This document shows, one piece after another, positions 3,095 through 6,592 of a stretch of DNA of 33,150 nucleotides. A program made the position numbers and the translations under genes. The notes below the pieces were generated by a model, which saw only the letters and a program-made list of their open reading frames with translations, searched no databases and was not told where the DNA came from. The stretch comes from an uncultured Nitrospira sp. (GTDB lineage: Bacteria; Nitrospirota; Nitrospiria; Nitrospirales; Nitrospiraceae), in assembly GCA_902500785.1 (NCBI GenBank), contig CABVRW010000005.1, positions 83,008-116,157 on the forward strand, written 5' to 3'. The first letter of the stretch is position 1. The number at the start of each line of letters is the position of its first letter.

Positions 3095-3175
3095 AGAATG
3101 CGTTCCCATAGCGGAGCCCGAAGCAACCATGTATTCCCCTGTCTCGTTGGCCACATTAACCTAGAGAGCGCCCCT

Positions 3176-4813
3176 ATGTCCCTGCCGGCTGAGAAGTCTG
3201 CGTCCGACGAACTACGTCGAGAGGTGCTGCGACGGCGCACGTTTGCCATCATTTCACACCCGGACGCCGGGAAAACCACCTTAACGGAAAAGCTACTGCT
3301 CTATGCGGGGGCCGTGCATCTGGCGGGCGCGGTACAGGCTCGATCCAGCCAACGTCAGGCGAAGTCCGACTGGATGGAGCTGGAGCAGGCGCGCGGGATC
3401 TCCATCACTTCCACCATGCTCCAGTTCGATTATCAGGGCGCGCGCGTCAATCTTCTCGATACGCCGGGACACCAGGATTTCAGTGAAGACACCTATCGCA
3501 CCCTCATGGCGGTGGATAGCGCGGTCATGGTGCTGGACGGCGCGAAAGGCATCGAGCCGCAAACCAAAAAACTTTTTGCTGTCTGCCGCAAGCGCGGCAT
3601 CCCCATCCTGACCTTCATCAATAAGATGGATCAACCGGGCCGCCACCCCTTCGATCTGCTCGATGAAATCGAGCGCACCTTGGGCATGACGGCGGTGCCC
3701 TTCAATTGGCCGATCGGCGAAGGGTCCGGCTTTCAAGGCCTGTATGATTTCCAGCATCGACAGGTGCTGTTCTTCCAACGGACGGCACACAACCAACGCC
3801 GCGCTCCCATGACGGTCGAAGCCTTTCCCAACCCGAAACTGGCGGAGACGCTGGGCGAGGCCTACGCTCCGCTGCAGGAAGAGATCGGGTTGTTATCCGG
3901 CGCAGGCGCCTCGTTTGATCGTCACCGTTTTCTCGCGGGCGAACTCACCCCGGTGTTCTTCGGCAGCGCGTTGACCAACTTCGGGGTCGGACCGTTCCTC
4001 GATGCCTTCACGCAACTCGCGCCGCCGCCGGGCCCACGGGAGACCGCTCAAGGATCGGTGCAACCGACGGACGAGACCTTCTCCGGCTTCGTGTTCAAAA
4101 TCCAAGCGAATATGGACCCGCAGCATCGAGACCGCATGGCCTTTCTCCGCATTTGTTCGGGCCGCTTCGAAAAGGACATGATGGTCTATCACGCCCGGTT
4201 GGGTCGGAAGATCCGCATGACGCGTCCGCACCGGCTCTTCGGTCGCGATCGCGAAACGATTGATGAAGCTTACCCCGGCGACGTGGTGGGATTGGTCAAC
4301 CCCGGCCTGTTCACGATCGGCGATACCCTGACCTCCGACCCCGCGCTGGCCTTCGATCCCATTCCGCATTTTGCTCCCGAATGTTTCGCCCTTCTGCGCA
4401 CGCACGATATTTCCAAGCACAAGCAGTTTCAGAAGGGACTCAAGCAGCTGGAAGAGGAAGGGGTCATGCAGATTTTTTATTCGCCGGACCACGTGCGTCG
4501 CGAACCGGTGCTGGCCGCGGTGGGTGAGCTGCAATTCGACGTGGTCATGTCTCGCTTGGAGAACGAGTACGGGGTCACGACGTCCGTCGAGCGCCTGCCC
4601 CATGCGCTGGCCCGCTGGGTCGTCGGTGATCCCGCGACGATCGCGGCCGTCTATTGGCCTTCCGACACCATCCGGCTCGTCGATCAACAGGGCCGCGGCG
4701 TCATGCTGTTCACCACCGAACACCTCCTCGCCTATTGCATCAAATCGAACCCGTCCATCAAGTTTCTGCTACGGGAGGACGTGGCCGGAGCTGAACACCA
4801 GCGGGACGTCTGA
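3176..4813 (+). CDS. prfC: Peptide chain release factor 3 (RF3)
   Basis: A 545-residue translational GTPase, close to the family length of about 530. RF3 recycles RF1 and RF2 from the ribosome after peptide release, in the cytoplasm. All GTPase motifs are present: G1 SHPDAGKTT (about 27-35), G2 RGISIT (73-78), G3 DTPGHQDFSEDTYR (95-108) and G4 NKMD (149-152). RF3-type features are the G1 SHPDAGKTT rather than the EF-G form, and the C-terminal stretch VRREPVLAAVGELQFDVVMSRLENEYG. The ATG at 3176 gives the typical N-terminus (SDELRREVLRRRTFAIISHPDAGKTT); an upstream extension to 3098 has no family support. GAGAG just upstream is a modest ribosome binding site. It follows the YihY-family gene by 254 bases and has its own likely promoter. 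Confidence 0.97.
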   Translation: MSLPAEKSASDELRREVLRRRTFAIISHPDAGKTTLTEKLLLYAGAVHLAGAVQARSSQRQAKSDWMELEQARGISITSTMLQFDYQGARVNLLDTPGHQDFSEDTYRTLMAVDSAVMVLDGAKGIEPQTKKLFAVCRKRGIPILTFINKMDQPGRHPFDLLDEIERTLGMTAVPFNWPIGEGSGFQGLYDFQHRQVLFFQRTAHNQRRAPMTVEAFPNPKLAETLGEAYAPLQEEIGLLSGAGASFDRHRFLAGELTPVFFGSALTNFGVGPFLDAFTQLAPPPGPRETAQGSVQPTDETFSGFVFKIQANMDPQHRDRMAFLRICSGRFEKDMMVYHARLGRKIRMTRPHRLFGRDRETIDEAYPGDVVGLVNPGLFTIGDTLTSDPALAFDPIPHFAPECFALLRTHDISKHKQFQKGLKQLEEEGVMQIFYSPDHVRREPVLAAVGELQFDVVMSRLENEYGVTTSVERLPHALARWVVGDPATIAAVYWPSDTIRLVDQQGRGVMLFTTEHLLAYCIKSNPSIKFLLREDVAGAEHQRDV

Positions 4814-4836: not shown

Positions 4837-4845
4837 ATACTGGAC
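4837..4845 (+). repeat. ATACTGGAC motif, copy 1
   Basis: Nine bases identical to the core of the half-site in the 5058-5078 palindrome. It is the outermost of three copies upstream of the SGNH-like gene. Confidence 0.45.
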
Positions 4846-4886
4846 CTTCGCGCAGCGACGTTCGCCACGGCCCGCCTTATCCAGCT

Positions 4887-4897
4887 ATACTGGACAC
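4887..4897 (+). repeat. ATACTGGACAC motif, copy 2
   Basis: Eleven bases identical to 5068-5078 in the same orientation. With the preceding T it also makes a TATACT box, though no good -35 element is placed in front of it. Confidence 0.5.
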
Positions 4898-5042: not shown

Positions 5043-5071
5043 TTGACTTAACTCAATGTGTCCAGTAATAC
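5043..5071 (+). promoter_or_regulatory. Strong sigma-70 type promoter for the SGNH-like gene
   Basis: TTGACT (5043-5048), a spacer of exactly 17 bases, and TAATAC (5066-5071) form the best -35/-10 pair in the window. Transcription would start near 5078, about 75 bases before the start codon at 5153. The -10 box lies inside the palindrome at 5058-5078. Confidence 0.65.
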
Positions 5072-5078
5072 TGGACAC
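5058..5078. promoter_or_regulatory. Perfect palindrome overlapping the -10 box, candidate operator
   Basis: Nine-base arms GTGTCCAGT (5058-5066) and ACTGGACAC (5070-5078) flank AAT. The palindrome covers the -10 box and the expected transcription start, the usual place for a repressor operator. Half-sites at 4887 and 4837 could be auxiliary sites. No regulator gene is adjacent. A remnant of inverted transposon ends is the alternative reading. Confidence 0.55.
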
Positions 5079-5152: not shown

Positions 5153-6592
5153 ATGGAACCGATCGAATGCAGTCTCGCCATGCGAAATGATGAACGGAGA
5201 GGGATTACCATCCTCCTCACCCTGATGGTGTTCCTTGCGGGGTACGGCATCCTCTTCCTCACGGGAGTGACGAACATCCGGCACCTGCTCGACAATGTCA
5301 TCTCGGCCTATCTGTTGGCCTGGGCATTGTATGGAATGTTTGCGCGAGTCCCACTCTCGGAAACAGGGTCACGTTTTCTGCTCACGACCGGCTCACTCGT
5401 GTTTTGCTGGTTGCTTGCCGAGGGCGCTGTCATGATCGGCGCAATTGATTTCCGTACGCTCCTCGGAGCGTACGAACCGGGCACGGCTTTAAGTATGGAA
5501 GGGAGGCGGTACGATAAAGAACTCTTATGGCGACACGATCCGCATTATCAGTACGAAGCGTCTTACCAAGGGAACCTCGGTGGAGCGCTGTGCATTCCTC
5601 CCGATCCGACGCACAAGATAGACGTCCGGTATGACCACAATGGATTTCGCAATGCCCGCGACCTCCATGAGGCGGAGCTCGTGGTCATCGGGGATTCATA
5701 CATTGAGGGATATCTCACGCCCGAGTCGAAGCTGATCACGACGGTACTGAGTGAGCTGCAAGGCACCTCCGTCGCCAATCTTGGTCATTCAGGGTATGGC
5801 CCCCAGCAGGAACTGGCCGTCCTTCGACGGTTCGGGCTGCCGCTCAAACCCAAGACCGTGGTCTGGGCGTTTTTTGAAGGCAATGACTTCTCTGATTCGT
5901 TGGCCTATGAAAGGCAGGCTTATGGATCCGGCAACGATTTCTGGCAGAACTTCTGGTTTCGTTCATTGACCAGAAATGTCGCGGCTCTCATGTTTCGGCA
6001 GGGGCGACAATGTATCCCGAAGGAATCGATCACTGAATTCCGGGCCGAGTTCATCGACGCCGAGCACATGACCAAGACCATACTGTTTGCCCCGACTGAA
6101 GTGGCACAGCCATCCGGTCCGACCCTTCACAACGCCATCGCGCCCATCGTCGAAGCGGCGCTCCTCTGTCGCGAGCAGAACATCCGCTTCCTCGTCGCCT
6201 TTGTCCCGGAAAAATTCCGGGTGTACCATGACCTCCACAATGTGTCGTTGACCACGGATGCGGTCCGCCAATTGCGTGTCACCGATCTACCCGACCACAT
6301 GCGACGGCTCCTGACGGAGTTAGTCCCAACCATTGAGTATGTCGATCTGACTCCGGCGCTGAAGTCCGCAACGCGCGCAGGCATTGCCACCTACCTGGCC
6401 GATGATACACATTGGACGGATGAAGGCAATCGTATCGCAGCCGACACGATTCACCGTGCGCTGAGAAAGAACCACGCCGATCGCGGCTTGGGATGGATAT
6501 TTTCTCGAATCTCATCGCTACCGGATCAGTCCTCATCCGACGACAACGTGCGGCACGGTGGCCCGCAGTATAGAAGGCTCATTAAAAAATAG
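5153..6592 (+). CDS. SGNH/GDSL-type, AlgX/AlgJ-like membrane-anchored protein
   Basis: A 479-residue protein with N-terminal hydrophobic segments at about residues 17-38, 48-65 and 75-97, followed by a large soluble domain. The soluble part carries SGNH-hydrolase blocks: VVIGDSYIEGY (GDS with Ser182), a Gly-containing LGHSGYGP block (211-217), FFEGND with Asn244, and a terminal DDTHWTDEGNRIAAD (Asp418, His420), the DxxH pair typical of AlgX/AlgJ and other carbohydrate O-acetyl transferases or esterases. It therefore probably acts on a polysaccharide or cell-envelope glycan outside the membrane; the substrate is not inferable. ATG at 5153 is used though its ribosome binding site is weak; ATG at 5180 is an alternative. 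It is a single-gene unit behind the strong promoter and palindrome at 5043-5078. Confidence 0.75.
   Translation: MEPIECSLAMRNDERRGITILLTLMVFLAGYGILFLTGVTNIRHLLDNVISAYLLAWALYGMFARVPLSETGSRFLLTTGSLVFCWLLAEGAVMIGAIDFRTLLGAYEPGTALSMEGRRYDKELLWRHDPHYQYEASYQGNLGGALCIPPDPTHKIDVRYDHNGFRNARDLHEAELVVIGDSYIEGYLTPESKLITTVLSELQGTSVANLGHSGYGPQQELAVLRRFGLPLKPKTVVWAFFEGNDFSDSLAYERQAYGSGNDFWQNFWFRSLTRNVAALMFRQGRQCIPKESITEFRAEFIDAEHMTKTILFAPTEVAQPSGPTLHNAIAPIVEAALLCREQNIRFLVAFVPEKFRVYHDLHNVSLTTDAVRQLRVTDLPDHMRRLLTELVPTIEYVDLTPALKSATRAGIATYLADDTHWTDEGNRIAADTIHRALRKNHADRGLGWIFSRISSLPDQSSSDDNVRHGGPQYRRLIKK

Follow-up and report, generated by a model that had tools for sequence, protein, structure and literature searches.

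The closest described systems are the XRE-cupin proteins of Pseudomonas (PauR, PsdR, ErfA and others), which, in the part of the published account consulted, are local inhibitors that recognise palindromic sequences and attach next to the genes encoding them (PMC7901475). The same part of that source describes these proteins as combining a helix-turn-helix (HTH) domain with a cupin domain, with few targets and with sites located in promoters, and PuuR of E. coli as leaving the DNA upon sensing putrescine (PMC7901475). The candidate Nitrospira system analysed here shares the domain architecture, the palindromic sites, the small number of targets, the site next to the own gene and the location of sites in promoters. 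The difference relates to the targets: the Pseudomonas proteins, as far as that part of the account goes, act on the uptake and processing of small molecules (PMC7901475), whereas the Nitrospira targets are polysaccharide genes, several of them unlinked to the regulator.

Through comparative evidence, a regulator, a 19-bp site and a set of target genes have been tied together, which offers a testable handle on surface-polysaccharide control and extends to Ca. N. defluvii. Nitrospira are key nitrite oxidisers living in flocs and biofilms and, to our knowledge, few of their regulators have assigned targets. The literature searched, partly at the level of titles and abstracts, contained no description of the motif or of a Nitrospira XRE-cupin regulator. 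The kind of switch is well known; the candidate regulator and its predicted target set are newly recognised.

Palindrome and promoter upstream of the AlgX-like gene

The window, i.e. the whole analysed stretch of 33,150 nucleotides from an uncultured Nitrospira sp., contains a perfect palindrome, GTGTCCAGTAATACTGGACAC, composed of two perfect 10-bp arms and one central base (GTGTCCAGTA-A-TACTGGACAC) and located some 100 bp upstream of the gene for an AlgX-like SGNH protein (Table 1). The earlier note on this DNA had reported the palindrome as perfect; it is real and perfect, with arms one base pair longer than noted. The same note had placed this operator over a promoter, a reading that stood: TTGACT and TAATAC, separated by 17 bases, are both present in the sequence, and the palindrome lies over the promoter that they form. 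A promoter scan recovered the same -35 element but favoured AATACT at a spacing of 18 bases, which leaves a one-base uncertainty in the -10. The transcription start would lie near 5078.

Table 1. Features of the window related to the palindrome (positions are those of the window).
Feature	Position	Strand	Remarks
Main operator (putative)	5058..5078	no strand	19-bp conserved core TGTCCAGTAATACTGGACA at 5059-5077; kept within the genus
-35 element TTGACT	5043..5048	+	TTGAC at the same offset (-16 from core) in 10/13 orthologous promoters
-10 element TAATAC	5066..5071	+	on the dyad centre; alternative AATACT 5067-5072
Auxiliary operator TATCCAGCTATACTGGACA (putative, 3 mismatches)	4878..4896	no strand	181 bp upstream of the main site
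Isolated half-site TACTGGAC	4838..4845	+	weak, may be chance
AlgX-like SGNH gene (target)	5180..6592	+	PF16822 E 8e-14; homologues align from ATG 5180
prfC (release factor 3), upstream neighbour, context	3098..4813	+	PF16658 RF3_C and GTP_EFTU

The promoter was compared with its orthologues in a set of 13 window-type loci, the window included, in which the AlgX gene is 64-98% identical to that of the window; in 11 of them this gene adjoins and follows prfC. The promoter reading is supported by the constant register of TTGAC, which precedes the core by exactly 16 bases in all but three members; it lies at -17 in L075, at the weaker, gene-proximal site in L071, and is absent from L058.

In the window, the pattern GTGTCCAGTNNNACTGGACAC (up to 3 mismatches) gave two matches against 0.02 expected, the second being an imperfect copy at 4877-4897. 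By count alone this 3-mismatch copy is not above chance, as judged by the own-genome control given below, and its support comes from its conserved position. A second copy, 126-223 bp away, is found in 7 of the 13 window-type promoters, at distances of 181 (window, between centres), 180, 184, 181, 178, 126 (98% sister G080) and 223 bp; the scores range from 11.7 to 33.1, the best value in 50 shuffles of a 1.1-kb stretch being 6.0. L071 differs in that its weaker copy is the one closer to the gene. The spacing suggests that the two copies may be joined by DNA looping.

The AlgX-like gene scores above the gathering threshold of the AlgX family (PF16822, 52.3 bits against 26.5), in agreement with the earlier assignment of the regulated gene to SGNH/AlgX-like enzymes. 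The match differs from a full AlgX in covering only positions 10-135 of the 268 of the profile, and the O-acetyltransferase function is putative. Sequence search found no solved structure for this protein. The longest open reading frame begins at 5153; since homologues align from the ATG at 5180, the latter is probably the start, giving a protein of 470 aa.

In five window-type promoters the arms extend beyond the 19-mer, by 12 pairs in L062 and L056, 11 in L048, 9 in L072 and 5 in L049, with flanks that differ in sequence between genomes. Protein binding to the 19-mer would not require these extended arms; template-switch repair or a structure at the DNA level are guesses as to their origin.

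Distribution of the motif and its neighbouring genes

In the window's own genome (3.9 Mb), TGTCCAGTANTACTGGACA with up to 3 mismatches occurs at four sites against two for the reversed-pattern control, from which the 0- and 1-mismatch sites stand well above chance; a looser pattern did not rise above noise (13 sites against 22 in the control). Two of the four sites belong to the window, one lies on contig C16, some 270 bp upstream of the gene for a hexapeptide acetyltransferase (HexAT), and one on C6 before a family-2 glycosyltransferase (GT2) gene.

Among 147 genomes of the family, the 19-mer TGTCCAGTANTACTGGACA (up to 1 mismatch) has been identified in 27: in 25 of the 29 belonging to the genus Nitrospira and in 2 of the 118 others (G056 and G132), the reversed-pattern control giving 0 throughout. 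It was found in none of the 216 genomes outside the family in a set of 295 drawn from the phylum. A search for exact matches in 84,980 named genomes (GTDB) returned 18 stretches, 12 of them from Nitrospira or Nitrospiraceae, including Ca. Nitrospira defluvii. By this distribution the window belongs to Nitrospira. The remaining six compare with our own chance estimate of about 4, and the sequence around them contained no XRE-cupin relative at E 1e-5.

Two groups of these distant matches may be described separately. In two rumen bacteria, the same palindrome recurs, exactly or nearly so, ahead of AAA_14/DUF4143 ATPase genes (L131:25-43 and 66-84; L142:153-171), with no XRE-cupin relative in the sequence examined. 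Two Heliobacterium species carry exact copies (L133:5408-5426, L138:2183-2201, L135:4193-4211), two of the three in nearly identical surroundings beside a gene that we take, by eye, to be integrase-like.

All sites with up to 1 mismatch in the 147-genome scan were fetched with their flanks, giving 45 loci with 46 sites. Polysaccharide-type genes lie beside the site in 45/45 of these loci, and are of three kinds: (i) the AlgX-like enzyme; (ii) an operon of EpsC-like acetyltransferase, FkbH, acyl carrier protein (ACP) and Wzt; (iii) glycosyltransferases. The earlier note had named, as a refuting case, a palindrome occurring mainly inside transposon ends; the loci carry polysaccharide genes instead, many of them syntenic. 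A first blastp search placed the AlgX-like family at 18 loci and HexAT at 18; further comparisons brought in L052 (genome G107) for the AlgX-like gene, and L061 and L065 for the HexAT operon. Of the remaining six loci, L055 holds a fragment with 92% identity to the Wzt-like ABC ATPase, L085 a GT2, L069 an epimerase plus GT2 and L074 a GT2/FkbM gene, and in L087 and L088 a glycosyltransferase is followed by the regulator described below (in L088 by position and sequence start only). A specific repressor very probably docks at this palindrome and would also control other polysaccharide genes.

The XRE-cupin candidate and its co-occurrence with the motif

Clustering of the genes surrounding the sites revealed an XRE-cupin protein of about 200 aa beside several of them. 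In the window's genome (G000) it is encoded at C16:43399-43968, on a contig other than that of the window, which fits the earlier proposal of a regulator not encoded nearby. The protein consists of an N-terminal Cro/CI-type HTH (HTH_3, 5.7e-9, residues 27-81) and a C-terminal cupin domain (Cupin_2, 3.7e-13, residues 126-195), and has one remote solved relative, 1y9q. Its best-scoring curated family is PuuR (NF007408), aligned over nearly the whole protein; at 63.9 bits against a cut-off of 211 it is nevertheless not PuuR, and, in contrast to the E. coli regulator, no polyamine genes were seen at the palindrome sites.

In G000 the HexAT operon starts with the same palindrome and ends with the regulator gene; the site thus stands at the operon head and not directly beside the regulator. 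The genes of this operon are, successively, HexAT, FkbH (TIGR01686, above cut-off), MaoC/SDR, acyl carrier protein, a Wzt-like ATPase and the regulator. HexAT resembles the EpsC/CysE-type hexapeptide acetyltransferases in sequence, yet with 88 bits against the cut-off of 150 (NF041874) it is not an assigned EpsC. Six genomes (G000, G030, G038, G055, G072, G113) have the HexAT palindrome and the regulator on one strand, with the regulator some 6-8 kb further downstream.

A second arrangement, in the order AlgX-like gene, palindrome and divergent regulator, was found at 16 loci in 15 genomes. Among 30 regulator loci compared, 16 have a site (up to 4 mismatches) close to the regulator, against a mean of 0.3 in whole-set base shuffles. 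Six genus genomes (G110, G086, G064, G095, G066 and G089) have no site within the fetched flank (up to 1.5 kb) of the regulator, and three of them, examined over a longer distance, have none within about 5 kb; autoregulation is therefore not universal.

The regulator has been identified in 32 of the 147 family genomes (28/29 of the genus and 4/118 others, with a partial match in G018). It is present in 27/27 motif genomes, the motif being found in 27/32 regulator genomes and in 0/115 genomes without the regulator (Fisher 8e-25, uncorrected for relatedness). Shared ancestry inflates this association, as most of the genomes come from one genus; outside the genus, both motif genomes are among the four with the regulator (P 9e-4). 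Of the five regulator genomes without a site of up to 1 mismatch, four (G018, G058, G014 and G033) carry more divergent sites (2-4 mismatches) close to the regulator, the variant of G033 being TGTACAGTAATACTGTACA; the other one, G110, has a completeness of 66%. A degenerate search (up to 2 mismatches) gave no match in the regulator-negative relatives G001, G045, G073 and G078, nor in G092, G110 and G018, and one match in G014, on C6; its reversed control gave one match in G092 and two in G033. Neither the motif nor the AlgX-like gene nor HexAT is present in G092, the sole member of the genus that lacks the regulator.

The same pattern was obtained when the target genes were taken as the starting point. 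AlgX-like loci carry a site (up to 4 mismatches) in 24 of 25 cases in regulator-positive genomes and in 0 of 5 in regulator-negative ones (30 loci scanned of 49 matches listed, genes of G056 and G132 excluded). The regulator-positive G110 has no site near its AlgX-like gene in the approximately 220 bp of upstream sequence covered. Correspondingly, HexAT loci (30, same threshold) carry a site in 24/26 regulator-positive and 0/4 regulator-negative cases, the two misses being in G056 and G132, where HexAT is divergent. Each of these two genomes has one site by pattern, before a glycosyltransferase-regulator pair. The sites, their conservation, their gene contexts and their co-occurrence with the regulator are matters of direct observation, and together they make it probable, with good confidence, that the palindrome is the operator of the Nitrospira XRE-cupin transcription factor (HTH_3 plus Cupin_2, PuuR-like).

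Promoter geometry, proposed mechanism and competing explanations

Two promoter geometries are associated with the motif. At window-type promoters the -10 element falls on the dyad centre. At HexAT promoters (18 loci) the start of the core is 75-291 bases upstream of the gene, and after the core comes an extended -10, TATGNTAAGAT or a similar sequence; there is no clear -35. If these -10 assignments are right, a bound protein would cover about -19 to -1 at the former and -36 to -18 at the latter. Two known arrangements have been set aside: a sigma-54 enhancer type, because of the fixed TTGAC offset in 10 of the 13 window-type promoters and the extended -10 after HexAT-type sites, and a MerR-type spacer operator at HexAT promoters, where by inspection the dyad is not centred in a 19-20 bp spacer.

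In the proposed mechanism, an XRE-cupin dimer would bind TGTCCAGTANTACTGGACA. At the window's gene it would cover the -10 region and, as the operator lies over this element, should exclude RNA polymerase; at the HexAT operon it would sit just upstream of the extended -10. A small metabolite from the pathway is probably the ligand of the cupin domain, and its binding would release the DNA. Release would jointly switch on the AlgX-like SGNH enzyme, the HexAT/FkbH/MaoC-SDR/ACP/Wzt operon, the glycosyltransferase and the regulator itself. We infer binding, repression, looping with the upstream copy and release by a ligand, and the inhibitor-and-release principle is carried over from the Pseudomonas relatives and PuuR by family resemblance.

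The competitor that survives best accepts the XRE-cupin protein as the binder and makes it an activator, or a dual regulator, at some promoters such as the HexAT operon. The palindrome there occupies the -35 region, next to a conserved extended -10 with no clear -35. A dyad centre near -27 is, however, unusual for a classical activator, and at the window's gene the site lies over the -10 of a promoter whose -35 is good. The characterised Pseudomonas relatives, in the part of the source consulted, are moreover inhibitors (PMC7901475), and activation is considered unlikely.

It is somewhat less likely still that another regulator binds the palindrome and that the XRE-cupin gene is one of its targets. 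The correlational nature of the association would allow this, as would the six genus genomes that have the regulator gene and no nearby site, but presence and absence of the XRE-cupin gene match the motif in 27/27 motif genomes, including two of another genus, and adjacency of site and regulator is very frequent.

An RNA hairpin, serving as a processing site or as an attenuator of read-through from prfC in place of a protein site, is very improbable. The arms extended by 5-12 pairs with differing flanks in some orthologues would suit it; against it, the sequence of the 19-mer itself is conserved beyond what pairing alone requires, the arms at HexAT-type sites are extended by 0-2 pairs (21 sites), and the predicted start falls after the left arm. 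No terminator was predicted, and a comparison with Rfam at gathering score returned no known RNA element. Transposon ends, too, can give rise to short palindromes, but a mobile-element repeat or chance palindrome is hardly credible given the excess of matches in the window, the synteny beside prfC and the AlgX-like gene at 11 loci, and the restriction of the motif to the family within the phylum set.

With the XRE-cupin operator as the preferred reading, a Nitrospira-specific form of the switch may tentatively be outlined, in which one operator is used in two geometries, the AlgX site forms a loop of about 180 bp and the cupin domain senses an FkbH/ACP intermediate. Dispersed genes for an acyl-modified surface polysaccharide would then be turned on, the ligand possibly being glyceryl- or hydroxyacyl-derived. 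The stretch L119:5394-12540 carries the operon HexAT-FkbH-MaoC/SDR-ACP-Wzt-like ATPase-regulator, whose composition suggests that synthesis on a carrier protein may provide an acyl group for a surface glycan. G075 and G104 each hold two AlgX-like paralogues, of which one adjoins the regulator and the other belongs to the window type; both kinds carry sites.
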